Positions 1-53,553 of a stretch of 64,000 bases of DNA are shown here, one piece after another. Under the pieces are notes generated by a model. The model was not told the origin of the DNA and did not search any database. It saw only the letters and a list, made by a program, of their open reading frames with translations. Each line of letters opens with the position of its first letter. Position 1 is the first letter of the stretch. Source of the stretch: Gracilariopsis chorda. Lineage: Eukaryota; Rhodophyta; Florideophyceae; Gracilariales; Gracilariaceae. The stretch covers positions 62,001 to 126,000 of the forward strand of contig NBIV01000135.1 in the NCBI GenBank assembly GCA_003194525.1, in the 5' to 3' direction. The translations under genes and the position numbers were made by a program.

Positions 1-3000
1 GGTGTCCGTGAAAGGACCAACTCGAAAGGGGATATTCCGGTAGTCCGGTGTACCTGCGTATTGTACGCAAAGGTCACGGCATCCGTGTAGATATCCCAAG
101 TCTTGGGGTGGTCAGTCGTGTAAGCACGGAGAGCTGCGAGCATTGTCCGGTTGAAACGCTCGACCTGCCCATTAGACTGGGGATGATACGTGGTCGTGAA
201 GAGATTCTTCACGTCCAGTATCCGACAGACGTCCTGGAAAAATCGCGATGCGAACTGTTTCCCGTTGTCGGAAAGTAGCTCCAAAGGAGGTCCGTAGGCA
301 AACACCCAATGCCGCACAAAGGCGTGAGCGACCGTGTAGGCGGTAATCCTCTTTAGAGGGACTGTCCGAACTAATTTCGAGAACCTGTCCGTAATAACGA
401 GTAGGAACTTGTTGCCTCTCCTGGTAGAGAGCAATGGTCCGAGAATGTCAATTGCGACAAACTCGAGCGGCGCCCTGGCGGGGAATAGCTTCATCCGTTT
501 GGAGTGCTTCCGGAGTTTGACCCGGTTCTTCGCGCATTGCGTGCAAAACCGCACCGTAGCGTAGCAATCAACCGCAATGGCGGGCCAGTAGAAATCCCTG
601 CGAAGGGTTAGATAAAGCTTCCTCCCACCGGAGTGTCCCCCGAGTTTCGGGTAATGCGAAAGGTGCAATATCCGCTTCTGTAGCGTGTGCGGTACCACAA
701 CTTGTGGGGTAGCTTCGACGGTCCTCACGAGGTAACCAATGTCGTTCACCCCGAAGGGGAGGTTCTCTCCGCCGTTGAGGCGTGCACGTATCCTTGTACA
801 GAAGGGGTCCCCGAATTGTTCTCGGATCATTTCCTCGGTCTCAACCGGTACATAATTTCCCGGTATGGGTTTCTCAGAATCATCTCGCGATGCGAGTAGG
901 TAGTCGAAGTCAGCATCTTCGTCCCAGTTTTCTGGCTCAGCCTCGACGGCACATTCCGGATCATCCGGGTCCATTGCCATGAAACATGGGACTTCATCAT
1001 CCTCCGTTGGGAGTGCCTCCCCACTTGTGGGTAAACGCGACAGAGCGTCGGCTTGGGTGTTCTGCGCGCCCTTTTTATAAATGACTTGGAAGTCATATTC
1101 CGCGAGGCGGAGTCTCCAGCGCATGAGGCGTCCCGACGGGTCGGAGATATTCATTAACCACCTCAGTGAGGAATGATCCGTGTAAACGGTGAAATGGACT
1201 CCCATAAGGTAGGGGCGCAGAGTGGTCATCGCCCATACGACGGCGAGGCACTCTTTCTCCGATACGGAGTAGTTCCGCTCATGGACATTGAGCGAGCGCG
1301 ACCAATAACCAATTGGGTGTCGTTCCCCCTCGGGGGTGGTTTGAAAAAGAGCACACCCGACTTGGTAGTCGCTCGAGTCCGTATCTACGGAGTATGGCAA
1401 CCCAAGTTTTGGGAGATGTAGGATTGGTGCTGATGTGACAGCCTCCTTCAAGGAGTTAAAGGCTTCCGATTGCTCGGGCGTAGATGTTCCCAGTTTTGGG
1501 GGGTTCCCCTTTCGCAACAACGCGTTCAGGGGCGCTGCAGTATCCGAAAAGTTCGGGATAAACCGTCGATAGACGTTGAACAGCCCCAGAAAGGAGCGCA
1601 GTTCCGTTTGAGTACGGGGTTCTTTCGCCTCAACGAGGGATTTGACTCGAGCTTTCTCGATCGCTAACCGTCCAGGACGGATAATGTGACCCAGATACTT
1701 CACAGTATCTGTGAAAAACTCGCATTTCCTCAACTTGAGGGTAATTCCCGCATCGCGGAGTACGGTCAGCACGTCTCGGACGTGAGTGAGATGGTCGTCC
1801 AACGAGTTGGAGAAGATGATAATATCATCAAGGTAGACCAGACAACTCCGCCACTTAAAGCGGTTGAGTAGGATATCTACTGCACGCTGAAAGGTGGCGG
1901 GGGCGTTGGTTAACCCAAATGGCATCCGCTTGAAGCGGTACGTTCCTGCATGGCAGGTGAATGCGGTTTTGTCGCGATCCTCCTGTCTGACAGGTACTTG
2001 CCAATATCCCCAATTGGCATCAAGGGCCGTGAACACGGTGGCGTCTCCAAGGGAGTCAATGCACTCGTCCATACGAGGGATGGGGTACGTGTCCCTAACA
2101 GTCACGGCAGTGAGCCGGCGGTAGTCGACACAGAACCTCCAGGTTCCGTCAGCCTTTAAAGCCAGTACAACTGGGGATGCCCAGGGCGATTGAGCGGGCT
2201 CAGTCACACCTGCGCGGAGCATCTTGTCCACCTGGGACTGCTCCTCTTCCCGAGCTTTCGGACCTGCCCTGTAAGGGGGTTGTGCAACCGGTCACGCACC
2301 GGGGATTAAATCGATCCGGTGTTCCGTTGCATCAATCTCGCCAAGCGAGCCATCCCACATTGTGGTGAATTCCCGTAACATAGTACGGAGTTTGTTGCGG
2401 TGCGACTCTGGCACGTGGCTGAAGTCCAGCGCTTCAAGTGCTTTTTCCGGATCAATCCGGTCATTGCTCGATGGAGCATTGTCCTGTGGAACAGGTGTGG
2501 TTCGCAATTCCGAGTTACTCGGTATGTTCGACGCTGAAGTAGCGGTTTCCTCCCCCTCCTTAGACTTGACGTCTTCGGACGGCGGGGTGAACTCCTCAGA
2601 AGAGGTGGTAACTCCGAGTACATCGGCGGCTGTCATCTTCGTTGGCAGCATTCCCATAGGATGGGGGGTTACACTCCCAATTACTTGGTGTTTGACCAGA
2701 TACTGGGGGTGTTTGCCAAGGTTGGCAACCAATATCCGGAAAGGAACATCCGGGGAAATGGAGACAATTCCATTAGCCAGCGCCAGCTGGGATTTCTCGT
2801 ACAACGAGGCGAGGGGTTGTATAACCCGAAGACCGTGTTGACGGGAATTTACCTGTACCCAGACTTGGGACTCAGCCGGTATAGAAACCGAGGCAGCGAC
2901 GCGGAGCTTGGTGGACTCGCGGGACGCGGGCGGTGGTTCCTGCGCAGCAGGGAGCGGAACTTGTTTCCGAGAGGACCGCTTTAGCGGGCGGCGAACAATC

Positions 3001-3551
3001 GGAACCGACGATCCGTCGTCAAGTTCTACACGCCTGAGGCGGGGCCTGATTGCGTCGACAAATCTGTCGCAGTAATCACATCCCAGTATGACTGGTGCTG
3101 CCAGTGAACGGCAAACGATGAAGTCCAACTTCACCACAGATGTACCAAGTCTCACGACGAGGTCCACTGTGCCCACCGTTTGTAACGGATTGTTGTTCGC
3201 ATCCGAAATGTCGGGGACCGCGTCAGAGCGGATACGCGACCGCACAAGCGGGGGTAACAATGATTCCACGACAAAGTTGGGGCCTGCACCTGTATCCAGG
3301 ACGGTGAGAAACCTCACCATAAACTGGGGGTCAAGGCCAAGGTCGGCATAGACCTTATAATTGCACTTGGCCAAGACCAAGACTCTACCGGGAATCCGGG
3401 GATTTTTACTCCGTATCCACGGGCGACGCAACACACCGAGGTGCGCAGAGTCCGCGTCAGCGGTGTCTTTCCTCGAGAGGACTTTCACCGGGGAGCGAGG
3501 CGAGGACGCCTCGGGCGCCAACAGCCTCGTTTTTGAGGACGCCTCTCCCAA
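1..3551 (-). pseudogene. pol: pol: protease, RT, RNase H, integrase; one in-frame TGA, truncated by window edge
   Basis: Retrotransposon polyprotein that copies element RNA and integrates the cDNA. Domains along the minus strand: aspartic protease (DTGA at about 3286-3297); RT with the palm block LDANWGYWQ and catalytic YLDD at 1824-1835; RNase H with VDTDSSDYQVG near 1380 and the TDHSSLRWL block near 1170; an HHCC zinc domain near 540-680; and an integrase core with the first Asp near 450, SDNGKQF near 270 and QVERFN near 155. The frame is open through 1 apart from TGA at 2292-2294. That codon occupies the position normally filled by Arg in the gypsy 'ARPV.QPPYR' block just before the RT fingers, so CGA to TGA is the likely change. 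The frame is -1 relative to gag. The ORF has no ATG at its head, which fits expression as a Gag-Pol fusion. Confidence 0.88.
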
Positions 3552-3578
3552 AGGGGAGACTCCCTCAGTTAGTTTTCC
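3542..3578 (-). promoter_or_regulatory. possible -1 ribosomal frameshift site at the gag/pol junction
   Basis: The last two gag codons and the preceding base read G GAA AAC, followed at once by the TAA stop. Shifting back one base enters the pol frame without meeting a stop. About a dozen bases downstream a perfect 6-bp stem (TCTCCC / GGGAGA, 4-nt loop) could act as a stimulator. GGAAAAC is not a textbook X XXY YYZ heptamer, and similar hairpins occur throughout this element, so the support is circumstantial. Confidence 0.4.
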
Positions 3579-5743
3579 GCCTTCGGCGGTGGGTTGGTTT
3601 CCTCGACAACGAGTGCTTCATCCCGTTGACGGGGGTTTCTATCCGCATAAGCGGGGGTTGCAACGGATGGTTGCGTGATCTCCCGAATCGGGGTGTATGA
3701 AGCTTGCCGCGCACGCGGGGTCTGTGGTAGGGCGTGAGAAAAGTCCGTTTTAGCACGGAGGTAGGAAGCCGTCGGGACGGAACGTTTCTCCTCTGGAGTG
3801 AGGGCCTCATAATTTGCCACCACCTTGGCCATATCCTTCAGTGAACAAATACACTGAGGAGAGGTATGGCCATGGGCATAGCACAGGTGGCAAATGAGAG
3901 CCAGCACTGCGACACGCGGATTATTATTCCGAGTATCGGAGAAGCGAACCGCAGGGCGGGTGTCAGTCCATCCAGGCCGTTGATAACGGGATTGACCGTT
4001 TGAAAACGGGAGTCGTTGGGGTTGAACCCGACTGTTACCACCGTATAGAACGGGATCTTCTGTTCCCGTATCATGGGTCATCTCCGTCGTTGACGGTAAC
4101 TCACTGGTGGGTATCGACACACCATCCCCCTGCGCTAAATGCACGGTATCAAATCCCTGTCCAGGGTTCCCATCCGGGGTGAGCGGGAGAGAGGAAGCTT
4201 CGCTTTCCAGCAACAACGCCTTGGCGGATTTAGACCGATTGTTCGGAGTTCTTGCACGAAGTGCATCCCCTTCCGCTCGAGCGTGTTGGACCAGCTCGAG
4301 GTAGGTGATCCTTCGCTTGTCCTCCCGATAACGGGTAACTAAACTCCGGATTGCCGGGTCACGACCATCAATGAACATGGTACTGCGTTCCCCAGCGGGG
4401 TATACGTTACCACATCTGTGGAAAGCCTTGTTAAGGCGCACCGAGTAATCGGTCTCGGTCTCTCCAGCACGCTGGCGTGTATCTCGCAAAGCGAGGATAG
4501 CCTGCTGAATAGCGGTGTTGGTGGCGTAGGAGCGCAGAAGATACTGCACAGCCTCCGGCCAGCAAGTAACTCCTCCCTCGGAGGCGCGAGAAGATCCTCG
4601 GACAGAGGTGTATTGGTCCTCGGCCACTCCCCGTAAGAAATACGGTAAAGCCAAATAGGCTTGTCCCTCATTCATACCGAGGATATCGGCCTCCGCTACA
4701 AAGCGGGATAGGAAATCCAGTACTAGGACTGGGTCCTCTCCAGTAAAATACTGGTTGCGGAGCGAGAGCTGCATTCGCTTAATGCATTCTCGCACCTTTC
4801 CCGTACCACGGGGCGTACGTCCAAGTGACGAATCTTCAAGCCGGTAGTACCGGTATGATAAAAGCTTCCGATAATCCGGGTTTGTCGGTTTCAATTCCCG
4901 GAGACCGGGGTGTCTTCTCCCCTTCTGGCGGGTTCGGACCACACCTTCAGTGGCCGATGACCGCTTCGAGCGGGAGGAGTAGCCTCGCTTCTCGTCCTCC
5001 GAGTCGGAGTCCGAGGAGCTCGAGCTAACCGAATGGTTTCGGGGTGAGTCCGACGATGTCGAAGAATCGGAGTCCGAATATTTTCGGTGATGTTTCCGTC
5101 GGTGACGGCGTTTCTTCTTCCCAGCAAGCTGGTCGTTGTACGATGCCTCGTTTACCGGATCACCCGGGGATGGTTTGTCCATGAGGACGAACTGCTCCAG
5201 CGTCTCCAGGCGGGCACCAATCCGATCAAATCGGGCTTCAACTCCTTCGATGAAGGCGGCGGGTTGTCCCAAACTCTCCAACACGGAGTTGACGTCAGAC
5301 CGTAAAATACGGAGCTCCTCGGCGACCTCCTTTACGGGGGTTGCCGAGACCACCTCTTGGAGGGATTTTAGTTCCCCTACAAGGGTGTCATGGGCGGTCC
5401 ACAGAGCGCGGACCTGGGATTCCAGGGAAGTTCCCTGTGGGGTGTTATCGCCCGTTCTACGGGGGCTTGAAGCCGCGACAGCGGGAGCAGGCCGGGGTGC
5501 CTGGGGCACTGCGGCAACAGCCGGAGTCGATGCTGCATTCCCCTGCGGGGGTGATAACGAGGGCAAAAGGAGGTTCCGGGGTTCCCGGTCGGGGGTATCA
5601 TTCCGCGATGAAGCGGCGCCAGCACGGCTGGAACTTGTCCGTATAGGGATATGGGGTACGAACCGAACTTCGGAAGAGTCCGCGTTGTCGCGGGAGCGAC
5701 TACGCGTAACCACTGGCTCCGCGTCGGAGGGATTTCTCGACAT
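3569..5743 (-). CDS. gag: Gag polyprotein with RS/SD-rich tract and CCHC zinc knuckle (724 aa)
   Basis: Structural protein of the retrotransposon particle. The first ~110 residues are low-complexity and Pro/Ala/Ser-rich. They are followed by a predicted helical/coiled segment (~110-200), then a striking basic-to-Ser/Asp/Glu tract (~210-280) that resembles splicing-factor RS regions. A retrotransposon Gag fold follows at ~330-500, recognised by the aromatic/Leu pattern and the ETETDYSVRLNKAFHR block. Near residue 630 there is a zinc knuckle of form C-X2-C-X4-H-X4-C (CHLCYAHGHTSPQC). The ATG at 5743 is the first in frame. The TAA at 3569-3571 is directly preceded by GGAAAAC, a possible -1 slip site, and pol is open in the -1 frame across it. 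No disabling lesion is visible. Confidence 0.85.
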   Translation of the reverse strand: MSRNPSDAEPVVTRSRSRDNADSSEVRFVPHIPIRTSSSRAGAASSRNDTPDREPRNLLLPSLSPPQGNAASTPAVAAVPQAPRPAPAVAASSPRRTGDNTPQGTSLESQVRALWTAHDTLVGELKSLQEVVSATPVKEVAEELRILRSDVNSVLESLGQPAAFIEGVEARFDRIGARLETLEQFVLMDKPSPGDPVNEASYNDQLAGKKKRRHRRKHHRKYSDSDSSTSSDSPRNHSVSSSSSDSDSEDEKRGYSSRSKRSSATEGVVRTRQKGRRHPGLRELKPTNPDYRKLLSYRYYRLEDSSLGRTPRGTGKVRECIKRMQLSLRNQYFTGEDPVLVLDFLSRFVAEADILGMNEGQAYLALPYFLRGVAEDQYTSVRGSSRASEGGVTCWPEAVQYLLRSYATNTAIQQAILALRDTRQRAGETETDYSVRLNKAFHRCGNVYPAGERSTMFIDGRDPAIRSLVTRYREDKRRITYLELVQHARAEGDALRARTPNNRSKSAKALLLESEASSLPLTPDGNPGQGFDTVHLAQGDGVSIPTSELPSTTEMTHDTGTEDPVLYGGNSRVQPQRLPFSNGQSRYQRPGWTDTRPAVRFSDTRNNNPRVAVLALICHLCYAHGHTSPQCICSLKDMAKVVANYEALTPEEKRSVPTASYLRAKTDFSHALPQTPRARQASYTPIREITQPSVATPAYADRNPRQRDEALVVEETNPPPKAEN

Positions 5744-5827
5744 GAGAAAATACCGTTACGACGGGAAACGATCACGGAACTTCCGGTGAATGAAAACAAA
5801 CCTCGTAAGAGGGAAAACAAAAACCGA

Positions 5828-5845
5828 TTCTAGGTCGGGAGACCA
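5828..5845 (-). promoter_or_regulatory. candidate primer-binding site
   Basis: On the minus strand the stretch begins TGGTCTCCCGACC. The plus strand therefore looks like a tRNA 3' end: a T-loop-like GATT, 5-nt stem CTAGG, 7-nt acceptor strand TCGGGAG, discriminator A and CCA. It sits about 85 nt upstream of the gag ATG, where a PBS belongs. The cognate tRNA is not in the window, so this is an inference. Confidence 0.35.
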
Positions 5846-6665
5846 CTTTGTGGTGCAATGCCCCAAAGGGGAAAAACACCGAAAGACGTCCGGGATCTTC
5901 CTCTCACGAGGTGAACCCAGTTGGGTAGAGCCCTCCCAGAGGTGTCACGGCGAAGCCGGTTTGTAAGACCAGGGACACCTGTCGCGACTCGCGCAGGGAG
6001 GTGAAGGCGAAGAATCGGTATCCGCGTGAGCGGGGTGTGATCCTCAGTAGAGGTATGCTTCCACGTAAGTGGGGGTGTGTGAGCGGATGCGCACACGAGG
6101 GCCGCGGATAGCGGGAGGTGCTACCCTAAAAAGGGGAAAGAGGAAGGACGAGTGGGTCGCGAGAGCGACGAGTAGATACGGCAATGCCGGTGGACAGGAC
6201 TCCCTATACAGGGCGAAACACCAATATGATTGGAACAATTAGTACTCCCAATGATGGGTCTCCTTTAGATGTGCAAGGGGGGTGAACTTCCGTACGCTAC
6301 GGTGCTTCCCTCCAAGGAGGAGTTGAGAACACGCGGAGGCGGTAAAGCTCAGAGCCAATTCCCCAGGTTGGGGTCCCTTGTTGGGGAAGGTTTACTGGTG
6401 CGACGGCAGTGCGCCGTCGCACTAAGTACTAGCTTCCCAGAAATGGGTGTGAAAATAATAAATAAAATTAACTAAAGTACTCCACATTCCGTGGCAACAT
6501 CCACTACTGTGGCCAACCGCCAATTGACCCAAAACCGTGTCCCACGTGTCCATACCCACCGTAGTGGGGCGTAGTTCATATACACACTACACAACCGATA
6601 ATATCGGGAAAACAATCAAGTACCAAGAATCCCTCCCTGAGGGCGATGCACTTCAATCTGAGGAA

Positions 6666-7127
6666 ATGAGGGAACGTGAAAGGGAGGCAAAAGAACGTGA
6701 GAAGGAGGCGATAGAAGCGAGGCAAGAGGCGAAAGAACGTGAGAGGGAGGCGAAAGAAGCGAGGCAACGAGAAAAAGAACGTGAAAGGGAGGCAAAAGAA
6801 CGTGAGAGGAAGGCGAAAGAAGCGAGGCAACGAGAGAAAGAACGTGAAAGGGAGGCAAAAGAACGTGAGAGGAAGGCGAAAGAAGCGAGGCAACGACAGA
6901 AAGAGGCGAACCAACGAGAGAAAGAGGCGAACCAACGAGAGAAAGAACGTGAAAAGGAGGCGAGAGAACTTCGAGACAAACTGGATGCGGTTCAGCGCAA
7001 GAAGAGGCGTTACAAAAGGTTAGTCAAAGAAAATGTCCCTGACGAAGTAACAAGCATATCTAGTGGAAGTCCGAAAAGTAGTAAGACCACTAGTCCAGAT
7101 AAGAAAAGAACTAGACGTCACGACTGA
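6666..7127 (+). CDS. Coiled-coil Glu/Lys/Arg/Ala-repeat protein (hypothetical)
   Basis: Unrecognised. The ATG at 6666 opens a 153-residue frame, and the same frame is open upstream to about 6537 without an earlier ATG. It consists largely of 4- and 7-residue units such as REREAKER and KAKEARQRE, predicting a long charged coiled coil. A basic Ser/Thr-rich tail follows and ends with TGA at 7125-7127. The DNA has a 63-nt tandem unit (about 6715-6900). It lies directly against the right limit of the retrotransposon hairpin pattern and on the opposite strand, so it could be the 3' exon of a host gene interrupted by the insertion, or an accessory ORF of a repeat. No catalytic motif is present. The antisense frames rich in Phe/Leu/Ser are artefacts of the repeat. 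Confidence 0.45.
   Translation: MREREREAKEREKEAIEARQEAKEREREAKEARQREKEREREAKERERKAKEARQREKEREREAKERERKAKEARQRQKEANQREKEANQREKEREKEARELRDKLDAVQRKKRRYKRLVKENVPDEVTSISSGSPKSSKTTSPDKKRTRRHD
6715..6900 (+). repeat. 63-nt tandem repeat inside coiled-coil ORF
   Basis: About three imperfect copies of a 63-nt unit encoding a 21-residue E/R/K/A block. The second and third copies are nearly identical, which indicates recent unequal exchange or slippage. Confidence 0.75.
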
Positions 7128-37636: not shown

Positions 37637-39277
37637 ATGGCTGCCATAGAGCAAGGTTCGAACAGTTTACGACGCCGGAATGCCACCGAAGGGGCTCCTG
37701 ATAACGGTTCCACGTTGTACAGCCTCGCTGAATCAACGCGGCTAGCTTGGGAACGGGTGCGACGTCTTTACGCCACGGATCCAAATGCGAGGGCGTATTC
37801 CTTTGCAGATGTGCGTCGCGGCTACAACTCGTATGACCCTCTAACGTCGAAGAAGATTGTTGGAGCGATTTGCTGCGGTCTGGTGGCAGCGCTCTTGCCA
37901 GATGCATACGCTAAGAGACAGCGTCTTTTCCATTTTGCGCAGGATGTGCTTCGAGCCAGAATTGAGGACATTGCGATTGTGGTCGGTGTGTTGGCTGCTC
38001 TTGTTCTCGCGTACAATTTTCGCAAACCAACGCCAGTGTACTTGATAGACGTGGAAACGTTTCAACCTCCCGAACGGTACCATGTGACGGTAGATCGGTT
38101 CATGAAAACGACTTTAGCGTCGAACAAATTCGATGAAGATGCTATAGCGTTCCAGAAGAAACTACTTGGACGCAGTGGGATCGGCGACAAGAGTGCGTTC
38201 CCCGTAGGGATACTCGAGCACTGCCACACAATTGCCGAAAATGGTGGCGACGAACGAGCGGTGTGCAACATGCACTTTGCCAGGGAAGAAGCGGAACTGG
38301 TACTATTTAGCTGTCTAGATGCTCTGCTTGTTCGTAACAATTTGGACCCGAAGTCGATTGATATTCTGATTGTTAATTGTTCTCTGTTTAATCCTACTCC
38401 AAGTCTGTCTGCCATGCTTGTGAACAAATACAAAATGCGAAGCTCGGTGCGCACGTATAACCTTGCGGGTATGGGTTGCTCAGCGGGACTTATCTCGATT
38501 GACCTGGCAAAGGACCTGCTACAAGTGCACCGTAAGGCAACGTGTGTAGTAGTGTCGACGGAGAACATAACACAAAACTGGTACCTTGGTCGCGAACGAT
38601 CTATGCTGATCACCAACACTCTGTTCCGAATGGGTGGCGCCGCAGTTCTACTAACCAACAAGCCCAGCGCAAGATCGCGTGCGCGATACGTACTGAGGCA
38701 CACAGTGCGGACGCATGTAGGTGCAGATGACCTGGCGTACGACTCCATCTTCCAGATGGAAGATAAAACGGGACTTCGCGGTGTGAAACTTTCCAAAAAT
38801 ATCATGGACGTGGCCGGCGGCGCGTTGAAAAAGAACGTAACAACACTTGCGCCGTTGGTGTTCCCCCTGACAGAGCACATCAAATTCGGGTTACATCTGC
38901 TGCGAAAGAAGGTATTGAACGAAGATTTACCGCCGTACATCCCCGATTTTCACATTGCGTTCCAGCATTTTTGTATCCACACTGGCGGACGAGCGGTGAT
39001 CGATGTGATGCAAGAGGCGCTGAAACTGACGAAACAGGACGTGGAGGCGAGTCGCTACGCGCTGCGACGGTACGGGAACACGTCGTCTGCGTCGGTGTGG
39101 TACGAGCTCAAGTTCCACGAGAACATGGGGCGCGTGCGGAGAGGCGAGCGCGTGTGGCAGATTGCGTTTGGCTCGGGCTTCAAGTGCAACTCGGCGGTGT
39201 GGGAGTGCGTCAACGATGTGCCGCAGGAGCGCCACCTGGTGTCGGACGAGGTGCTGGAGCAGGTTCGCACAGCGTGA
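37637..39277 (+). CDS. KCS: 3-ketoacyl-CoA synthase, FAE1/KCS type (546 aa)
   Basis: Condenses malonyl-CoA with long-chain acyl-CoA, the first and rate-limiting step of very-long-chain fatty acid elongation at the ER. Two membrane segments (KIVGAICCGLVAALLP near residue 76; IAIVVGVLAALVLAYNF near 115) precede PVYLIDVETFQPPERYHV, the KCS entry block. The thiolase-fold active site is complete: the nucleophile Cys is in NLAGMGCSAGLISIDLAKDLL, His in HFCIHTGGRAVIDV and Asn in RYGNTSSASVWYEL. This is the plant-type condensing enzyme, not ELO. The ATG at 37637 is the first in a frame open further upstream. Single exon, no lesion. Confidence 0.94.
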   Translation: MAAIEQGSNSLRRRNATEGAPDNGSTLYSLAESTRLAWERVRRLYATDPNARAYSFADVRRGYNSYDPLTSKKIVGAICCGLVAALLPDAYAKRQRLFHFAQDVLRARIEDIAIVVGVLAALVLAYNFRKPTPVYLIDVETFQPPERYHVTVDRFMKTTLASNKFDEDAIAFQKKLLGRSGIGDKSAFPVGILEHCHTIAENGGDERAVCNMHFAREEAELVLFSCLDALLVRNNLDPKSIDILIVNCSLFNPTPSLSAMLVNKYKMRSSVRTYNLAGMGCSAGLISIDLAKDLLQVHRKATCVVVSTENITQNWYLGRERSMLITNTLFRMGGAAVLLTNKPSARSRARYVLRHTVRTHVGADDLAYDSIFQMEDKTGLRGVKLSKNIMDVAGGALKKNVTTLAPLVFPLTEHIKFGLHLLRKKVLNEDLPPYIPDFHIAFQHFCIHTGGRAVIDVMQEALKLTKQDVEASRYALRRYGNTSSASVWYELKFHENMGRVRRGERVWQIAFGSGFKCNSAVWECVNDVPQERHLVSDEVLEQVRTA

Positions 39278-39506
39278 CAGCCGTGCGACGTGGCCGTGGT
39301 GGACGACGTGGCCGCGTGGCACAGGTGCGACGGAAAGCGTACAAGATTTTTTTTTTTTTTAAGATGCAAATCAAATATAGTACTGTACTTGTGTGTGGAG
39401 TGAGAGGTTTGACGACGGCATGCACAGGCGGTGCGCCCTCCGCTCGCTTGCTGCACGTCGCTCTACTAGTAGTAGCTTGTAAAAAAAAAAAACTCGTGAG
39501 TGCCAG

Positions 39507-40517
39507 TTAGTAGTACGCCGACCGAGGGCGTCTTAGAAAGCGAAGCCACGAAGGTCGGTGTCGTTGGTGCGGCAATAGTGTGGACGGTTTCTCGATGAAC
39601 CCGACGTAGTCGTCTGCGTAGCGGGAGGGTTCCTCACTCTGCGTTTGCTTGGTGGCTCTGAAGGGGGTGTCCATGTCGGTGGTGTTGCTGTCGGCGCTGT
39701 GCTTCTTCCTCCCTCTTCTGGAGAACAGCACTCGTCCTGGAGCAGGCGGCGCGGGTGTCGCGTGTCGACGTTTATCGTTCTTGGCTGGAATGCCGAGCCG
39801 CTCACCTAGTGTTGGCGGTTGCACCTGCAGCACGGAGCCGCGCACGCCAGGGGGCGGCTTGGAGCGTGCTTTATACAGGTTGCTGATGTGCCTCAAACTA
39901 GTGGCCCAACGACTTGTGGGCTGGTCCTCCACTTCGCAGGGGTCGAAGTGCGATTGCTGCGCCGTCCAATCGCGCCTCTCATCGGACGGAATCCAGTCGG
40001 GCACGTTGTGAACGTCGGGCAGCTGATCGATGAGGTTGTGCATGTCGGTGCGTATGCGCGCTTTGGACTGGGGTGGGTTGACGGCTGTTAGCGGCTTGAT
40101 TGGCGGTTTGCATACTTCGTGAATGTCCGATACGCAGCGCTTGTCGACTGCTTTTGGCTTGGGGAGGGGGCGATTCTGGGAGAGAATGCGACTTGGTTCC
40201 CTTCTCACAAAGACCTTTGCTTTGGGGAGACGGGTGAAGGAGGGTGGGTGCAGAAAATGGTCGTCGTTGCTAGCGTGGCTGTCGCGGGAGATAGTGCTTG
40301 TGCTTGCGTGGGCGGGCAGTTTGTGCACGGACGTTTTGTGGGGAAGTGGTGGCAGGGCGTGCGATTGCGCGGTGGGCTTGACGGTGACGGAGCAGGCGGT
40401 GTTGACGCTGGTGAGAGAGGTGTCGGAGTGGCGTGGAGACGTTGGGGGGGAAGTGTCCATTGTTGACGGCGGCGATGGGGGGGGTGAGGGCGGATGATTG
40501 TGTTGCTGTTGTGCCAT
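39507..40517 (-). CDS. Disordered Pro/Ser-rich protein (336 aa), unrecognised
   Basis: The first in-frame ATG is at 40517 (MAQQQHNHPP). The frame is open another 150 nt upstream without ATG. The N-terminal ~90 residues are Pro/Ser/Thr-rich. The middle and C-terminus are basic with conserved-looking aromatic stretches: PDVHNVPDWIPSDERRDW near residue 175, RWATSLRHISNLYKARSK near 210, and a C-terminus RPSWLRFLRRPRSAYY. No catalytic or zinc motif and no signal peptide. The length of an uninterrupted frame in GC-rich DNA is partly expected by chance, so I am only moderately sure it is coding. It converges on KCS. Confidence 0.5.
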   Translation of the reverse strand: MAQQQHNHPPSPPPSPPSTMDTSPPTSPRHSDTSLTSVNTACSVTVKPTAQSHALPPLPHKTSVHKLPAHASTSTISRDSHASNDDHFLHPPSFTRLPKAKVFVRREPSRILSQNRPLPKPKAVDKRCVSDIHEVCKPPIKPLTAVNPPQSKARIRTDMHNLIDQLPDVHNVPDWIPSDERRDWTAQQSHFDPCEVEDQPTSRWATSLRHISNLYKARSKPPPGVRGSVLQVQPPTLGERLGIPAKNDKRRHATPAPPAPGRVLFSRRGRKKHSADSNTTDMDTPFRATKQTQSEEPSRYADDYVGFIEKPSTLLPHQRHRPSWLRFLRRPRSAYY

Positions 40518-40659
40518 TGCGGGCAGTGGGGGAATTGAGGGTGGCAATGGGGATGGTGGGCGAGGCGAGTTAATTTGCAATGGGGGGGGGGGGGGGGGGG
40601 AGGGGAGGGGAGTGGGTGGATTGAAAAGGCAGGAGAGGCAGTGCGGGTTTTGAGTTGTG

Positions 40660-41160
40660 GGGAACACGCGCGTGGGCGGAGGACACGACTGGCTGAGGCG
40701 ACGCAGACGAAATATAGCGGCGCGAACAGACGCGCGCGGTGGCGGTGCGCTCGCGCAGCTTCCTACAGCGCGCGGCCGTTGGGCGCTGATGCGTAGCGCG
40801 TGCGGGGAGCGTGCGACGCGCGCGCGGCGCGCGTCGGCGACACAGCTGAGCCAATCAGCAAGCGCGCGCCGCTCGCGCTCTCTGCGCCGCTACGTGCGCG
40901 CGCGCGCGCGGCGCTGGCTGACGGGCGCCGCGCGGGCGCGCGCGCGGTGGGACAGCGGCTGTGGCGGCGCGCTGTTTCTGCGCGCGAACAAAGCCGTGCC
41001 GCGCGTCGTGGCGACGTCAGCTTGCTTCCAATTGCACGGCGCGCTGCCGCCGTTGGCCGCTTTTCTCGCTGAGGAGTGCTCAATGGCGTGTGCGCGCGCG
41101 CCGTTCGCCGCGTTTCGAATCGTCGTCGCGTAGCGTTCAACAAAGCGCGCCGTCGTTTGC
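40660..41160. other. CpG-dense, alternating GC block
   Basis: Far richer in CG dinucleotides than its surroundings, with alternating purine-pyrimidine runs such as GTGCGCGCGCGCGCGCGG near 40895. It lies upstream of the gene at 39507-40517 and could be its promoter CpG island; alternating CG tracts can form Z-DNA. Confidence 0.7.
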
Positions 41161-41263
41161 TCCTCCGCACGCGCTCACCTACTGTACCTGTGCTTCCTTT
41201 GACAAAGTTCACGTTTGGTACCTTTGGTAACTTACGCCTCAGAGCGCTTCGCTTCCCGCCGAT

Positions 41264-41320
41264 GAGAGAGCGAGAGAGCGAGAGAGCGAGAGAGCGAGAG
41301 AGCGAGAGAGCGAGAGAGCT
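41264..41320. repeat. (GAGAGC)n hexanucleotide repeat
   Basis: About seven uninterrupted copies of an 8-nt register of GAGAGAGC/GAGAGCGA, flanked by GAGAGC-related sequence. Confidence 0.85.
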
Positions 41321-44300
41321 CTCGCTGCGCGGGAGCTTGGTCACACATCGCGCCGCCGCGCTGTGTGACCATACTCCGCTATAAACATCAAGCCGTGCGC
41401 AACGAGCGTCGCGCCAAGCTGCCTGCGTCGCGGCCGCGCGCATACCGGCTTACCGACCGCTGCCCGAATGGCTGTTTGTCGCCGCTGTTTTGTTAACTCG
41501 ATTTTCTTTTTCAAAGCTGCGGCCCCGCGCCCCTTTCGTCCACGAAACAGCCGAAACGCCAACCACTGTGCAAGCGCATAACTGTACGAGCGCCATACGT
41601 TTTAAACGAACAGTACTTTCAATCTTCAAGCACACGTCTTTTCAAAAGCCCCACCGCTTTGATGCTCCCCTTGAGCGCCCTGCCAGTAATTATAACAAAG
41701 CGCCTTCCCGCCTACCCGTCGGCCCCTCGCTTCTTGTTCTACGCAAGCGCGAGCCCGGGAATTTGGCGACAATCGCATCAATTTTCATTACTCAAACAAC
41801 TAATCACCAACACAACCCAAGCACCACACGAACGCACCAAAGGGCTGGTGTCGCCGCGCATCGTTTTTGCGCCTCACGCTGCTGCTCTTTGCAAACCGCA
41901 AATAAACACGAGGTAGAAACCCGATTTTTGACATACCGCCTTTCCCGTACCCCATGTACCTTGGTCCCGACAACAATTGTGGCTCACATTTCGTTTGGAG
42001 CGCTAAAGGTAAACCGCTCTATAATAACTGCTGAGTCACCAGTGCAACGCGAATGCTTTTCTTGCCACTGCTTCAAACCAACTCCATCTTCCTCTCGTCC
42101 TCCTTGGGACGCTGTCATGTCTCTCACTCTCGTGCCTTCCACCTCATCACCCACCGCCTTTCCTCTCCACTGTCTCTTCCTTGTAAATCTCGCCACCCCA
42201 ATAACCCATGCGGAAACATCGCTCAATTATAGCCGAAACTACTAATAACAACTCATCACCACACTCCAATTTGCCGTGCTCATCCGGAGCACAACAGAAG
42301 GAGCCCCCCTCCGAGCGACTGCCTCCACGCCCGCCACCAAAATCCCGTACCATGTACACTACAGTATCATATCTCTCTCTCTCTCTCTCTCTCTTACGGG
42401 TACACTACATACAGTATGAGACCAGTGTTAATGTATTAACATGTGATCCGCTAGTCGCACTGAGCAACCCCCCTCGCAATAACTTAATGTTACGCCTGTA
42501 ACCGACCTCCCATCTCATCGCCCTCCTTAAGCCGCTCGCCCAAACGTCCACCTTAAAGGAACAACAACCGCCGCTCTTCACAGCGCAAGCACAATCTCTC
42601 GAAACAGCGCTCAACTCCGCAATTGGCCATCCAATCAACCAGTGGCGTGTGAGCCACTGCTGGACGACGAGACAGCAATGCCCTTCATACACCTCCACTG
42701 CCGCCGCACATCTTTGAACAGTGCGGAGAACGCTGATACCCTTGGGTACATACCAACGGTACATAGATACACGTCATGCTGCACCGATTCGTACTACTGC
42801 TCCCCAGTTGCCCGTAGCAGCAATGCCATTCCGTCCTTCATCATGATGCCACCCGAACCGCTTCGTACATCCGCTCATTCGTGCGAAGCACTGCCTTGAA
42901 AACGCAACAGCGCTTTGCACGCTGCTGTTTCTTTATTGTACACGCTGAGCATCGCCAGTGTCCCCTTGGTACTGCGGTACAGCGCAGTTCTTTTTTTGGG
43001 TAACTTACCCCCCCCCCCCCCCCCCCCCCCCCCTTCGAAAAAGAACTCAACTGTACCGAAGGTAAGGTTATCTACCGTTGTACCTGGACGGCTTGAAATA
43101 TTAAAAAGATGCTGACATACTGACGTAGGGCGCTGTCATAATCTCTCAGAAATCAGCACAATGTGTTACCTTGGTGCACTGCCGTGTTAAAAAGCATAAG
43201 CTACATATAGATAACTGTAGAAACGGCCGTGCTCAGTACAGATCCGTTTTCATGTCGCGTTGGATGCAATTCAATGCAGCGGTGAATTGAAGAATCCAAC
43301 TGCAGTTCGCGTCTTATAAGCACTCTTTTTTTTTGTTGCTCACGTTGGCGAGAAGGAGGCTCTGTCCACAGCTGCATGCATATATCGGCATCCGGGGCGA
43401 AAAAGAAAAGCGTACAGTTGGTACAGTCGCGTTGCGGATTCTCCTCGGACGCAACGGCAACATTTATGACAAATGGGCAGGGTTAGATTACATCAATGGG
43501 CCTTTAACACAGATATATACCAAGCGTTTCGCGAACGGCACTGCTCTTATAATTGTCGCACGTTTATAACCATTTCCACAGTCGCAGAAGATGAAGTTGG
43601 GACAAAATGCCATGACGCGTGACTTTCAAATGAATTGATAGCAGTCGTATGGAACGACTACTTTCGATCTTGTAAACAAAGGAACGAAACATGTCACGTC
43701 CCAAGGCGCAGGCATTTACATGAAACAATACAAGAAATAACTCAACTGTGGGACTCGCGCTGCGATGTAATGGTAGGTACCAGCAGGTTGGAGACAAAGC
43801 TTTTTGCAAGCGCTTCTGGAAAAGCTATTGAAAGAGGGGCGTCAATGGCGACGTATAATCGGCCTAAGCAGACAATTGATTGAGACGTGGTGGTCGCGGG
43901 GAAGGCCATCTCACACGCAGATACACTCAAGACGAGTTTTCTGTGATGTGACTGAGCAGATTGGAAGAAATATGTGGGCGGTGCGTTGTTGGAGTGGGTG
44001 GCTTTGCATTATTGCGGGCGCCAGGGTGAGGTACCGTTGGTAGGTGGAACGCCGCTACGTCTGGAAAACAGTAAAAAAGTGCTCAAGCTCGCGCGAGCGA
44101 GTCGCGAGTCTCGCCCATCGCCGTTTCAAGGGCACGCGATTGCACTTTTATACAGTATCTATGTTCTCGTTGGGGCACTGCACTGAGCCCAGCTGGTCCG
44201 ATTCATCTGTAAGCTACGGCCCGATGTAATGCAACGATATCCCCCCCTCCGTGATCTGCTCGATGCGCTCCACAAGCCGCGCTCATCCACCACCGGACGA

Positions 44301-44364
44301 AAGAGCCGCCCGTCTGCGACGAAATTACGTTTCATCTCACTTCACGAAGAACGGCAAGTGCGTC

Positions 44365-44931
44365 ATGGGAGACATTGACGAAGAGATCGTCGAGGGACCG
44401 AAGGTTGGTTTCATCTAAAATCGTCCACAACTGGAATCCGTTTAACCACCTTTAATCGCAACCGCTAACTTCGTCTTCCACGCTTATCTACGACTGTCTA
44501 AAACTGCGTCTAGGTGTCCGCTGCACTCGAGTTTGGAGGCACGTACGACAAGCCACGCACGCGTGATAAGTATTGGTACCGGGCCTTCTTGACCGAGACC
44601 CCACGCGATGAAGGTCTCATATGGAGGGTTGCCCGACGACCTCGCACACGTCGCGGAGAAGACCCACACCCTACCGTCCGGCTCATGAAGGAAAATCCTG
44701 CAGGCATGCTGTACGTTGCGATTTATCGCTCTCGCACTCCCCCTTGTGTCTATCTGGTGTCGCTTTGAAAGCACATACTTACCGCTGCTGTTCTTCTTTC
44801 GTAGATTTGCCAAGGTTAAGTCGGGAGAGATTCTCGTCGAGAATTATTACGATCATATCAATCGAATGATTCTGCAGGAAGCCGACGAAGCGAAGAAGGG
44901 ATCCAAAAAGTCTGAAAAGCCCTCCAAATAG
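44365..44931 (+). CDS. Unrecognised small protein, 3 exons (120 aa)
   Basis: Exon 1 is 44365-44403 (MGDIDEEIVEGPK), exon 2 is 44514-44710 and exon 3 is 44805-44931. Intron 1 is 110 nt with a weak GTTGGT donor and TAG acceptor. Intron 2 is 94 nt, GTACGT...TAG. Only this frame of exon 2 is open. The phase-2 join gives NPAGM-LFAKVKSGE. The product has an acidic N-terminus, a basic Trp/Tyr-rich middle (DKYWYRAF, GLIWRVARRPRTRRG), then VKSGEILVENYYDHINRMI and a Lys-rich tail. It is compact and soluble with no signal peptide. I do not recognise the family. It converges on RRP40 with a 55-nt gap, tight packing typical of the real genes here. Confidence 0.5.
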
Positions 44932-44986
44932 TTGGTTTGCGTATCACATAAACCAAAGTACACATCGTGAGCACACACTTTGCGTT

Positions 44987-45736
44987 TCATTTCTTGCTTT
45001 GCGACCACAGTTGCTTCACAAACTCTTGCCATTCATCCGCCCGCATCACGTCCGCTTTCTGCAGTGCCAGTGATAACAACATAGTGTGCTCACAGTTTCC
45101 GGCCTCGATCCATATCCGTCCATTCACCCCGACAGCGCTTTGAAACGGGACATTTCCTACCATTTTCAAAACGCGATCTTCTCGAAGCAACTTCCTCGCC
45201 ATTCCAAGCGATACCTGCACCACCGTACCCCCTTGCAGTTCTCCGTACAACGTCTCGCCACCAGACCAGCTTTTCGTGCTTCCCGGTTCAATGCAAGATA
45301 CTTCCGCCTCCATATTTTTAGACGCCCTCACCACTCTGCAATACACCAGCGCACCAGCGCCCAGATTCGGACGATTCTTTTTCGTAGCTCCTTGAAACGC
45401 CAACATAGACAGCGTCGCAGTATCGCTTCCGTTGATATCTAGTCGGTACTCCTCGCCGAATCGATCTTGTACAATCCCGATGATAGGGTCTTCCAAAGCC
45501 GGTACATACCTTTTCTGATTGCTTTCAACCCAAAGCTTGTTGCGCGACGCTTCGTAACGCATGTAACCTGCCTTGCTTGCTAGAAGTTCCGAACTCTTTT
45601 GAGTGACACCGCTCCCGATACGGATCACCGCCTGTCCCGCGTCAGCACTATCTCCGATGTTTGCCATTCTTTCACCTGGTAGGATTATCGTCCCGGGTTG
45701 CTTTGCAAGCTCCATTCCCGAAGGTCTCTTCGACAT
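44987..45736 (-). CDS. RRP40: Exosome complex component Rrp40/EXOSC3 (249 aa)
   Basis: S1/KH cap subunit of the RNA exosome, which degrades and processes RNA 3' to 5' in nucleus and cytoplasm. Features in order: an N-terminal domain (TIILPGERMANI, GSGVT), then the S1 domain opening YVPALEDPIIGIVQDRFGEE with GATKKNRPNLGAGALVYCRV near residue 140. The KH part carries the Rrp40-typical NGRIWIEAG near residue 205. The first in-frame ATG (45736) gives 249 aa, close to the family's usual 240-275. No lesion. Confidence 0.92.
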   Translation of the reverse strand: MSKRPSGMELAKQPGTIILPGERMANIGDSADAGQAVIRIGSGVTQKSSELLASKAGYMRYEASRNKLWVESNQKRYVPALEDPIIGIVQDRFGEEYRLDINGSDTATLSMLAFQGATKKNRPNLGAGALVYCRVVRASKNMEAEVSCIEPGSTKSWSGGETLYGELQGGTVVQVSLGMARKLLREDRVLKMVGNVPFQSAVGVNGRIWIEAGNCEHTMLLSLALQKADVMRADEWQEFVKQLWSQSKK

Positions 45737-46319
45737 TGTTTGTTTCAACCAAATCGCCGTCCTCGTGTCGTGGACACACCGTTTCAATGAACGAAACGTC
45801 TGTTGTTCATAGATTGTCTACAAAGTAAAAGGGAACCCCTTGGGTCACAATGCCGTCGAAGATTGCTCAAAACCGAAAAAGTGGCCACTTGAATTTTTAG
45901 TTTCAGCGCGACCACTGACACTGTACATAGTATGTACTACATACTGTGGCTGGATTCATCAGAAATGCATCCTCTGCCGATTCCTACCGGGTCCCTTGGC
46001 AGTCGCAACTCTTGCTAAGAGTTATGCCTGCTACACGGTAGCAGTTAACCCGTATCGCACCCATTGTCTGGACAGAATTCATTTCTCTTGTTTATATACT
46101 AATGCGTTATTGTTTCATCTATGCGGCAAACAAGCGATTGCATATCTGAACGCATTGAGATCTGAAAGAGAGCCCTTGCGGGGTGGACCTCAAAGTTTGA
46201 GGCTCAAACTGACTGTTCGCATGCGAAGTCACAGCCATCTTTCTGTGCGATCAGATATAAGGATACACTGAAGGTTTTCACGAATTTTCTTGAGTTCTTC
46301 TGCCGTCTGTGAGAACCAT
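45737..46319. other. Divergent promoter region RRP40 / NDUFAF7
   Basis: A long plus-strand frame here starts without ATG and shows no family feature; I read it as non-coding. Confidence 0.5.
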
Positions 46320-47603
46320 ATGATGAAACTTCTTCAGTGCTTGCGCCTTGTCAAACAAAGAGCTGCACTCGGCGGTCGTAGATTGTTTTGCAACACTACT
46401 GTGCCATTAAACAAACCAAAAGGATCCCCTTTGGCGAAACATCTCTACCAACAGATACGCTTTTCCGGCCCTCTTTCTGTAGCCGAATATATGCGCATCT
46501 GTCTGACACATCCGCAGTACGGGTACTACACAAGTCATCCTAACATTTTCGGTGCCGCGGGTGATTTCGTCACAGCCCCTCATGTAACACCTGTCTTCTC
46601 CCAGTTATTAGGCGTATGGATTGCAAATCATGTTACTACCACCTCAATGCGAGATTTTGAGCTCATCGAATTAGGTCCTGGAACAGGTCGTCTACTTACT
46701 GATTTACTCCCCACCGTGCAGAAGCTGCGTGCATCACCGGCATCTCTTACATTGTTCGAAGCAAGTTCTGAACTGCGCCAGGTGCAGAGCAAGGCTTTGG
46801 CCACTCTATCAAACGCACCCAAACCCCGATGGGCCTCTACCTTATCCGAAGCGCTCGACAATCCAAATGAGCAACCTGTTATTATCATAGCACATGAGTT
46901 TTTCGACGCCTTGCCAGTGCACGTTCTACATAAGGTACCTTCAAAAACTGGGACAGAATCACAGTGGCGGGAGCAGCTTGTTGATATTGTCGAAGACCCG
47001 AACCCTGGAGAGCCGCAATTTCGTTTTGTGCTATCTCGCGCTGCCACACCTGCAGTCGCACTTGCTCAATCGGTTTGCACAATACAGCCTCAAACCGATT
47101 CTAAAGTTCTTGAAGTATGTGCGGATGGAATGTCAACCGCCCGCAGACTGGCGGAGTTGATTCATCGTCGGGGAGGAGCCGCGTTGATAATCGATTATGG
47201 TTCTGACACACTTCGAGGCAACACGGTGCGAGCGCTTTCTAAGCATGCTATCACAGATGTCTTAGCTTCACCTGGAGAAAGTGACATTACGGCTGACGTT
47301 AATTTCGGTCATTTGCGGCACGCGGTTTCTGGTGTTCCTTCCATGCGTCTATGGAGCAGCATATCTCAAAGAGAGTTTTTGTTGCGTTTGGGAGCAGCTG
47401 AGAGGTTCCGAATGATTGCTAGATCAGTTGTGGCGACAGATGAGTCAGACGAAGAAATTGATAACAGACTGCTTAGATTACAGCAGGATTATGACCGCAT
47501 CGTTGGCGTTGGAGAGCAAAACATGGGAACTGTGTATAAAGTGGCAGTCATTGCAAATGAGAAAGAGGGCGTACCGTTTGGCTTTGCGAACCGCTCTGGA
47601 TGA
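46320..47603 (+). CDS. NDUFAF7: Complex I assembly methyltransferase NDUFAF7/MidA (427 aa)
   Basis: Mitochondrial SAM-dependent arginine methyltransferase that modifies NDUFS2 early in complex I assembly. The first residues (MMKLLQCLRLVKQRAALGGRR) form a basic amphipathic targeting sequence. The family signature follows: FSGPLSVAEYMRICLTHPQYGYY, GAAGDFVTAPHVTPVFSQLLG, FELIELGPGTGRLLTDLL (SAM-binding GxGxG, near residue 120), then IIAHEFFDALPVHV and AALIIDYGSDTLRGNTVRAL. Length is normal. The first in-frame ATG is used; ATG codons at 46320 and 46323 are adjacent. Single exon, no lesion. Confidence 0.93.
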   Translation: MMKLLQCLRLVKQRAALGGRRLFCNTTVPLNKPKGSPLAKHLYQQIRFSGPLSVAEYMRICLTHPQYGYYTSHPNIFGAAGDFVTAPHVTPVFSQLLGVWIANHVTTTSMRDFELIELGPGTGRLLTDLLPTVQKLRASPASLTLFEASSELRQVQSKALATLSNAPKPRWASTLSEALDNPNEQPVIIIAHEFFDALPVHVLHKVPSKTGTESQWREQLVDIVEDPNPGEPQFRFVLSRAATPAVALAQSVCTIQPQTDSKVLEVCADGMSTARRLAELIHRRGGAALIIDYGSDTLRGNTVRALSKHAITDVLASPGESDITADVNFGHLRHAVSGVPSMRLWSSISQREFLLRLGAAERFRMIARSVVATDESDEEIDNRLLRLQQDYDRIVGVGEQNMGTVYKVAVIANEKEGVPFGFANRSG

Positions 47604-48749
47604 GTTATCAAACGTGCGGTGTTTTACGCTTCAAGATCACTTTCTTATTTACCAAGAGATTCTGCACATCCTGCACATGCAAACTAAGAGCTAATATGCC
47701 CTACCGCATATTCAGAATGAGAAAAGCGATCTGCTTAAAAAGGACAAGATATAGTTAAGACCAAAGAAGGAACAAACCCTGAAGCTGAGGAACAAGATAC
47801 AAACCCCATGCGGCAGAAATACATCCGGCTACAGGCGTCGAAACAACAATATCCATTTCGGCTATGCCAAGTTAGCGCATGTCGGTCGTATCGATGTGAA
47901 CGCATACACTCATTTTGGCAGTAAGGTAGGCTTGTCCTCACTGATGAAGCGACTGTCTCACGAGAATGATGGGTAATTTTGCCGGCCACTTCGAATGTGA
48001 TATTGGTAACTCATTTACTCTCAGCTTGTACCGCATTGCAAACTCTTCTCCTCTCGAAGAGAGCATATGCCTGCAGGATCGTAGACCAAGACGCAGGCCC
48101 AAGACTATCTGAAGTTTTTCACCGCTTTTGGTTGGCTGGTCGGTCGATTTCTCTCTCGAAAGATAAGTTTAAGACGAGCCCATTTGCCGATGCGGTTGGC
48201 TTCCTCCTGATTCGCATCAGCAAGAAGGTCCGCACAGGGTGGATGGAGTAATGCACTATGGCCAAAACTGGATTACTAGCATTTCGCGCGTGACGCCTCA
48301 TCGTAATAGTAAAGCCGCTACACAAACAACAACAAAACTGGGCCAGAAGGCCGCTGGTCCTGCTCCCCGAGCTTTGCGACAATGTGAGCAGCGAAGTGCG
48401 TTCGACAATTACAACGAACAGAAAAGACTATGCACCTTAGGCACAATCGCCAACCTTCTTCTTTATTGTGGGTCCTTGATGGTTAAATTACGACATATGG
48501 TATACATATCTGTTTAGAGATACTTTTCTCTCCGCATGAAACCAAGGAATTTCTGCGGCCACTGTGTAATAATATCCTTGACGGACTTTCCCCTCTCGCG
48601 CAAACCTGGCAAGTGTTCTCTCCGAGCTTTATCAACCGACACCGAAGCACGTAGTGATCGACTTCCTTCTTTGCTCTGCAAAGGATCGCCAACCTAATTG
48701 CCCTTTTTCTTGGGGATTGAGCAAAACGTTCCTGCTTGCAAGAAGTTCT

Positions 48750-48777
48750 TGTGTGTGTGTGTGTGTGTGTGTGTGTT
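48750..48777. repeat. (GT)n microsatellite
   Basis: An uninterrupted GT run of about 28 bp. Confidence 0.95.
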
Positions 48778-51230: not shown

Positions 51231-51298
51231 CAAATCCGCTCGGCATGTACATCGCGAGAGCTTCCAAGGAAAGGAATATACTTGGCCTCTGCGTCAAA

Positions 51299-51496: not shown

Positions 51497-51599
51497 AAGC
51501 CAATACTGGCTTTAGAGTCTAAAACCAGGAGACCAATCCTGAAAGGAGGTTACAGGCCCAGGCCAAGGAACGGGAAACATCAACGGAACCTCCGGGAGT

Positions 51600-53551: not shown

Positions 53552-53553
53552 TC

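Follow-up and report, generated by a model that had tools for sequence, protein, structure and literature searches.

A dense, periodic array of short hairpins, conserved in its pairing, in a Ty3/gypsy retrotransposon of Gracilariopsis chorda

The window analysed here is a stretch of 64,000 nucleotides from the red alga Gracilariopsis chorda (contig NBIV01000135.1, C135 below, positions 62,001 to 126,000). Its first part contains, on the minus strand, the 5' portion of an 11,552-bp long terminal repeat (LTR) retrotransposon at C135:57104-68655, and this element bears an array of short, perfectly paired hairpins. The features of the element, with its open reading frames (ORFs) and its target-site duplication (TSD), are as follows, in window positions unless another coordinate is named.

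1..6655, minus strand: in-window part of the element, recognized by its LTRs, TSD and ORFs, with hairpin density at host level beyond the ends; the transcribed sense is the minus strand.
5849..6655, minus strand: 5' LTR of 807 bp, TG...CA, with 1 difference from the 3' LTR.
6656..6660, no strand: TSD ATCTG in the flanking sequence, with a copy also beside the 3' LTR.
5826..5845, minus strand: candidate primer-binding site, proposed from its sequence, which starts with TGG 3 nt inside the LTR.
3569..5743, minus strand: gag ORF, 724 aa, with a predicted helical core and a zinc knuckle.
2292..3551, minus strand: middle ORF, 419 aa, in what would be the protease position.
3..2231, minus strand: pol, encoding reverse transcriptase, RNase H and integrase in that order, continuing beyond the window.
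L078:740-2251 (contig C135), plus strand: antisense ORF.

The element is a Ty3/gypsy LTR retrotransposon of the chromovirus branch. Reverse transcriptase, RNase H and integrase follow one another in that order, a chromodomain (PF00385, E=1.1e-10, above its cut-off) lies in a separate ORF directly after integrase, and paired TG...CA LTRs and a TSD are present, which bears out an earlier reading of the window, made from the sequence alone, that the carrier is a retrotransposon. The insertion is young, because the 807-bp LTRs form a pair with one difference and ATCTG is duplicated on either side. In the Gag structure model the helical core is predicted at residues 311-498, and the mean predicted local distance difference test (pLDDT) score of the whole model is 60.6. 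The zinc knuckle, CX2CX4HX4C, was read by eye; across 22 aligned sequences each of its four residues reaches at least 90% conservation. Retrotrans_gag is matched by 10 of these 22 Gag sequences, the Gag of the window element itself has no Pfam match, and the best named homologues are from Agarophyton chilense. No Pfam match was found for the middle ORF either. The antisense ORF, of at least 504 aa, is located before the 3' LTR and makes the element ambisense. A related family, B, conserves it at 56% over 397 aa, and homologues are present in Gracilariopsis chorda and Gracilaria domingensis. A Pfam scan of this ORF gave no match, one of seven homologues had a weak GH63 match (E 0.045), and its structure model was unusable (mean pLDDT 38.7). 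At the 5' insertion site, window positions 6537-7127 on the plus strand hold a low-complexity ORF rich in Arg, Glu and Lys and built of 21-bp and 63-bp units; as listed, this ORF starts inside the LTR.

Hairpins were counted as maximal perfect Watson-Crick stems of at least 5 bp with loops of 2-6 nt (stem-5 hairpins), and the host reference was 50.5 kb of the window (7501-39000 and 42001-61000), with the GC-rich stretches 39001-42000 and 61001-64000 excluded. Stem-5 hairpins occur at 18.8 per kb in pol, 23.0 in the middle ORF, 22.5 in gag and 13.3 in the leader, against 5.2 per kb in the host, and the class with 5-bp stems and 3-nt loops (5+3+5) reaches 10.6 times the host rate. Sixty-seven of the 135 element hairpins with stems of at least 5 bp start with CC, compared with 7 of 265 in the host. 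The typical hairpin has a stem of 4-5 bp and a loop of 3-4 nt, often with a CC/GG foot. About 330 hairpins lie in 10.7 kb of the element, and on 5844-6655 (the 5' LTR) 24 hairpins with an outer C-G pair were counted. All nine hairpins quoted in the sequence-only reading were recovered at their coordinates; in 1921-2174, for which it gave about nine, seven lie entirely within the interval and one more extends across its end. Four hairpins serve as examples, none assigned to a strand.

1926..1938: 5+3+5 hairpin CCGCT-TGA-AGCGG, in which one stem pair is T-A in place of C-G in family B.
3622..3633: 12-mer CCCGT-TG-ACGGG.
6221..6233: LTR hairpin CCAAT-ATG-ATTGG, the entire loop of which differs in subfamily A2 while the stem is the same.
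6595..6607: LTR hairpin CCGAT-AAT-ATCGG.

The excess is not explained by the encoded proteins. Codon shuffles that preserve protein and codon usage, 200 per ORF for pol, middle ORF and gag, leave about a quarter of the stem-5 hairpins (pol 53 observed vs 13.4, middle ORF 35 vs 7.3, gag 52 vs 14.1; z 9-10) and reduce CC-clamped 12-14-mers to between one sixth and one ninth (30 vs 4.8, 22 vs 3.1 and 42 vs 4.6; z 12-18). The other coding stretches show the same clamp excess, with 36 vs 5.4 in the chromodomain ORF, 23 vs 5.5 in the antisense ORF and 12 vs 2.3 at the integrase end, a stretch that shares about 100 nt with the pol ORF of the window. Thus all six element ORF stretches exceed their codon shuffles in CC-clamped hairpins (z 7.5 to 18), and the stem-5 excess of the antisense ORF is modest (18 vs 10.6, z 2.0). 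Perfect hairpins numbered 169 compared with 44 in shuffles. The leader holds 27 hairpins vs 5.2 in dinucleotide shuffles. Strong enrichment is restricted to a total length of 11-14 nt, and longer classes are near expectation except for isolated ones, such as the 16-nt stem-5 hairpins of the middle ORF (z 5.3). In six host genes, with 100 shuffles each, stem-5 z ranged from -1.1 to 3.0 (the highest in GH63) and CC-clamp z from -1.3 to 1.8. The sequence-only reading had held that the hairpins lie in coding and noncoding parts while the protein is kept and that host genes lack them, and both statements are upheld, the second for the host genes tested. It depended on two outcomes, a density above that of synonymous-codon shuffles and a density above that of ordinary host genes, and both were obtained. 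A separate GC-rich, strongly skewed region at window 40001-42000 contains short tandem repeats and many stem-5 inverted repeats (28 per 2 kb), and the 4-kb block around it has zero CC-clamped hairpins.

In 400-nt bins of the contig, the density of CC-clamped hairpins is 7.5-30 per kb within the element and 0 in five bins outside. The ends of the array coincide with the ends of the LTRs, and the array is limited to the element. The span 1..6643 first proposed for the array was real, although its end is window position 6655, where the LTR ends, and the array continues below base 1 to contig position 57104. Thirty-eight loci of the family were fetched, representing 34 distinct copies including that of the window, and all 38 carry the array (stem-5 24-28 per kb). 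An RNase H search gave 30 loci, of which 28 are other Gypsy elements, 15 of them seemingly copies of one AT-rich family. No hairpin enrichment was found in these 28 loci of the same genome (CC-clamped 0-0.6 and stem-5 3.3-12.1 per kb). The sequence-only reading had raised a comparison with other LTR families, and these Gypsy loci stand at background. The remaining two loci are explained, one (L037) being a relative, family B, and the other (L031) containing a related LTR. In 1.5 kb of pol, stem-5 density per kb is 30.7 in family A, about 20 in C, 11.3 in B and 6.1-6.7 in D, and nucleotide identity of pol to A is about 79% in C, 75% in B and 71% in D. Hairpin density thus grades with relationship, A > C > B > D, and the array is limited to this clade in the loci sampled. 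The 28 background Gypsy loci rule out a general Gypsy property and, together with the host density, a property of the whole genome. None of the viral contigs matched the six peptide patterns used to look for relatives. The related LTR in L031 (L031:2670-3318) is of subfamily A2 and is inserted in the pol of another Gypsy element; neighbouring related LTRs also occur at C729, C757, C119 and C290. In the AT-rich Gypsy family (35% GC; loci L009-L025), RNase H matches on C509 and C755 are arranged in tandem with a spacing of 6.35 kb.

The spacing of the hairpins is periodic. Centre-to-centre distances show a twofold peak at 18-24 nt, a trough to half at 27-33 nt and further peaks near 40 and 60 nt, and the 18-24 peak is seen separately in the LTR, gag, pol, integrase-chromodomain and antisense-ORF regions. 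Host sequence, which supplies few pairs, has no 18-24 peak. Spectral analysis of 344 hairpins over 10,776 nt gave best periods of 19-20.5 nt, and none of 300 random placements that kept a 15-nt hard core reached the observed power. The regularity that had been put at 20-30 bp is real, and the centres recur at about 20 nt. Families B and C, with 151 and 36 hairpins, also peak at 19-25 nt, though not in full independence of A: of the pol hairpins, 15 of the 32 in B and 23 of the 34 in C are fully paired in A.

Comparison between subfamilies shows that the stems are conserved. Here and below, p-values are uncorrected for multiple tests and directed comparisons overlap. When the hairpins of the LTR are defined on A2 and compared with A, 0 of 164 stem positions changed, against 13 of 75 in loops and 43 of 388 in spacers (56/463 together; p=2.7e-8); when they are defined on A, 2 of 179 stem positions changed (p=1.4e-6), with no paired changes. 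Loops and spacers of the LTR differ by 11-17% between A and A2. Agreement is weaker in other LTR comparisons (A vs A3 p=0.007, A vs E p=0.019, E vs A p=0.014). At third positions, conservation of stems is clear in comparison with family C (p=0.007).

Mutations found in one copy are distributed differently. Singletons fell in stems, loops and spacers at 24/164, 12/75 and 46/410 positions in 18 A2 LTRs, at 8/230, 1/101 and 15/481 in 21 A LTRs, and at 35/964, 16/404 and 82/2333 in 34 pol copies with a mean coverage of 20. These single-copy mutations are mostly post-insertion, and they strike stems as often as elsewhere. Their even distribution rules out a lower mutation rate in stems, and nothing in the singletons points to selection on stems once the element has inserted. 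For the A2 LTR, singletons differ from the pairwise subfamily differences (Fisher test, p=1e-6). Polymorphism shared by at least three copies has probably passed through replication; in pol it affects 2/964 stem positions vs 24/2737 elsewhere (p=0.04). With pol and LTRs pooled, the ratio of stem to other positions is 67:172 for singletons and 3:45 for shared polymorphism (p=8e-4), the shared changes being scarcer in stems.

Where stems do change, both arms change together, with pairing kept, more often than expected in most comparisons. Between A and C1, the ratio of paired to single changes in pol stems is 13:32, compared with 72:1185 in the control (p=2e-6), and an excess of paired changes with p below 0.05 was also found for B2 to A, B2 to C1, C1 to A, C1 to B2, A to D1 and E to A. 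Of 43 hairpins of A, 22 are fully paired in C1, 15 with identical stems and seven through paired changes; nine are fully paired in B2 and three in D1. Because stems are conserved between subfamilies, singletons are even and paired changes occur, pairing itself is under purifying selection during replication of the element. Selection for structure was one of the causes offered by the sequence-only reading, and stem conservation supports it in this general form.

Which molecule pairs can be approached through mismatches, since folding of the sense RNA alone should tolerate G-U but not A-C. Neither was enriched among hairpins with one mismatch (G-T 73 vs 75.4 expected, A-C 103 vs 90.9), and one-sided stem changes in 12 overlapping directed comparisons comprised 82 G-T vs 88 A-C, with 3336 vs 3263 in the control. 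On the genomic-RNA strand, the position directly 3' of the hairpin (+1) carries A 140 times in 328, and the mirror of this, T at -1, occurs 54 times in 328 (p=5.5e-10). This +1 A holds in the antisense ORF (22/50 vs 10/50) and therefore follows the genomic strand, not the coding strand. Stability of an RNA 3' dangling end is greatest for A and least for C. At +1, A is likewise the most and C the least frequent base, with T and G out of the dangling-end order. Local folding energy on the sense strand is 13-17% below that of codon shuffles in pol, middle ORF and gag, with z of -5.3, -4.9 and -7.1 on the sense and -6.1, -6.1 and -7.6 on the antisense strand (30 shuffles each), so that folding energy shows no strand preference. 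Loop composition as a strand signal gave an excess of T over A that was significant in gag alone. Pairing may matter mainly in the genomic RNA, and perhaps in its complement too.

We tentatively favour the reading that the selected lattice consists of repeated contact sites for Gag, or for another protein of the element, on single-stranded nucleic acid, though we give it somewhat less than an even chance. The lattice would work in a single-stranded phase of the life cycle, and each hairpin, together with its single-stranded spacer, would offer a single place of contact to Gag or to some other protein of the element. In this way the clade's own nucleic acid alone might be bound, condensed and packaged in register. 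A protein contact site is preferred over a general shield because the hairpins have a fixed size, foot and spacing, are specific to the clade and are present in all parts of the element. Gag would be the first candidate for the binder, and its zinc knuckle counts in favour. Packaging sequences of Ty1 and Ty3 are not clearly defined, and scattered sites may contribute, according to a review (PMC4974528). A broader formulation is also possible, and we give it somewhat less credence: the roughly 330 strictly Watson-Crick mini-hairpins at a 20-nt register might constitute a second code, independent of gene or strand, by which the element's own protein, or both complementary strands, would recognize self nucleic acid over the entire element, as a lattice for self-recognition or against pairing.

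Several results weigh against selection on pairing or against the contact-site reading. In pol, stems are not depleted of sites that have exactly two minor alleles (6/964 vs 24/2737, p=0.54), and in the LTRs alone the depletion of shared polymorphism is a trend (p=0.11, 0.21). Paired changes show no significant excess for A to B2 (p=0.15) or in four of the five LTR comparisons, and third-position stem conservation is not significant in comparison with B (p=0.11) or D (p=0.76). Family D, with 21 hairpins, has no 20-nt peak. No loop motif is common, as no sequence occurs more than five times in 57 triloops or more than three times in 42 tetraloops. The lack of favour for G-U is unexpected if the sense RNA alone must pair, and in local folding a pairing probability above 0.5 is reached by 11 of 27 hairpins in the LTR and 27 of 65 in gag. 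In trans assays, Ty3 is reported to tolerate the loss of its internal sequence nt 429-4979 (PMC4974528).

Next to protein contact sites, a shield from RNA silencing or double-stranded RNA (dsRNA) has the most in its favour, although we consider it unlikely. Hairpins repeated at about the length of a small RNA would hide the genomic RNA from guides, and folding of both strands would slow pairing of the sense RNA with transcripts of the antisense ORF. The period of about 20 nt is near small-RNA length, and strict Watson-Crick pairing suits either strand. The conserved antisense ORF makes the element ambisense, and the genome encodes Argonaute- and Dicer-like genes. Genome-scale ordered RNA structure (GORS) in RNA viruses has also been proposed to shield RNA (PMC7642675). 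This explanation fits less well because a shield would be needed just as much by unrelated Gypsy families of this genome, and the 28 other Gypsy loci lack the array though they should be exposed to the same silencing. In addition, about a third of 21-nt windows hold fewer than seven hairpin nucleotides.

A function at the level of complementary DNA (cDNA) or DNA is less probable again; a signal in the DNA was the third cause put forward in the sequence-only reading. Hairpins could form in single-stranded cDNA, or a spacing of 20-21 bp could set dyads on one face of the DNA. Two turns of B-DNA measure 20-21 bp, in keeping with the period of about 20 nt. G-T and A-C mismatches behave alike and neither is favoured, as DNA pairing predicts, and this is the best account of the missing favour for G-U. 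On the other hand, the +1 A is strand-specific, and the base frequencies at +1, highest for A and lowest for C, would equally follow from the stability of RNA 3' dangling ends, apart from the misplaced T and G. Stems of 4-5 bp are probably too short for extrusion from the duplex, and a dimer that binds the duplex would not need variable stem positions to covary.

Neutral correction by reverse transcriptase, in which template switching perfects near-palindromes without selection, was the first cause suggested by the sequence-only reading, and we now regard it as very improbable. Paired changes and strict Watson-Crick pairing suit the copying of one arm onto the other. Under such a process, stems should change as fast as neutral sequence, by paired substitutions, whereas LTR stems defined on A2 are unchanged from A to A2 and show no paired changes, singletons are even and the Fisher test against them separates the two classes, as given above. 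The fixed size, clamp, period and +1 A would not be predicted by it, nor would the absence of the array from other Gypsy loci. On the strength of stem conservation in the LTR, it is rejected as the main cause. Chance, base composition or codon bias has practically no probability left: the element is richer in GC than the host (0.54-0.58 in its first six 1-kb bins, host mostly 0.41-0.53), but codon shuffles with the same composition, protein and codon use, the leader dinucleotide shuffles and the host comparison all fall far short of the observed hairpins.

The genome also contains, as an observation in its own right, two near-full-length Argonaute (Piwi) matches and 44 partial PIWI-domain matches (one below the cut-off), the latter mostly in repeats. 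Many partial matches form neighbouring pairs on opposite strands, on C48, C143, C345, C483, C648, C777, C944 and others, and on C483 they recur every 8008 bp. The locus L122 (G000:C483:17466-18156) holds an 83-bp inverted pair with 88% identity. A transcript could possibly form dsRNA resembling the host Argonaute and act as an anti-silencing device.

Our data indicate that a retrotransposon can bear dense, periodic pairing, maintained by selection, over its full length and on top of several protein genes, one of them antisense. Two ideas thereby become testable: either the Gag of a retroelement reads repeated RNA sites, as has been suggested for small RNA viruses, or transposons are shielded from silencing by structure. 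Gypsy families rich and poor in hairpins coexist in this genome and, with the graded series A, C, B and D, provide a natural experiment, and the missing favour for G-U is a puzzle for an account based on RNA only. If the second periodic code proved true, it would be a new kind of genome-wide lattice for self-recognition or against pairing, beyond generic RNA structure.

No periodic hairpin lattice in a retrotransposon is described among the matches listed in the literature, in which few subscription papers were covered. The statement of the sequence-only reading that no described element has this property therefore stands for the matches listed, although it did not name a near neighbour, GORS of RNA viruses. 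GORS is the nearest described kind. It consists of sequential stem-loops, the pairings of which are reported to be poorly conserved (PMC7642675, PMC3950689). As in our element, hundreds of consecutive stem-loops run through coding sequence, paired sites are less variable, and there is an energy excess, which is 13-17% below codon shuffles here and 15% in SARS-CoV-2 by that paper's own measure (PMC7642675). Unlike those of GORS, the hairpins here are fixed in size, perfect, often CC/GG-clamped and periodic at about 20 nt. GORS pairings are reported to be poorly conserved in identity. Here pairs are partly homologous, with compensatory change between near families: the 22 of 43 A hairpins that are fully paired in C1 and the LTR stems kept from A to A2 speak against indifference to which bases pair, and the low numbers in B2 (nine of 43) and D1 (three of 43) speak for it. 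The carrier also differs, as it is an LTR retrotransposon with its noncoding LTR included and not a positive-strand RNA virus.

Among functional ideas, the dispersed packaging signals of ssRNA viruses (MS2 type) come nearest. They too are many short hairpins with a common feature across a genome (PMC6281560). In comparison, the element has about 330 hairpins in 10.7 kb that share size, CC/GG clamp and +1 A, and they have no loop consensus. Retand-type and other plant LTR elements resemble our element in having extra ORFs, and the term 'antisense orientation' occurs in both papers on them; Retand is a non-chromovirus plant lineage, and the parts of these papers covered make no mention of a hairpin array (PMC11963269, PMC7264820). 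The element shares with chromoviruses a gag-pol with reverse transcriptase, RNase H, integrase and chromodomain, as well as LTRs and a TSD, and it differs from them in the hairpin lattice, in a chromodomain that lies, as read, in a separate downstream ORF, and in the antisense ORF near its 3' end. We therefore file the element as a chromovirus and its lattice as a variant of genome-wide selected structure.

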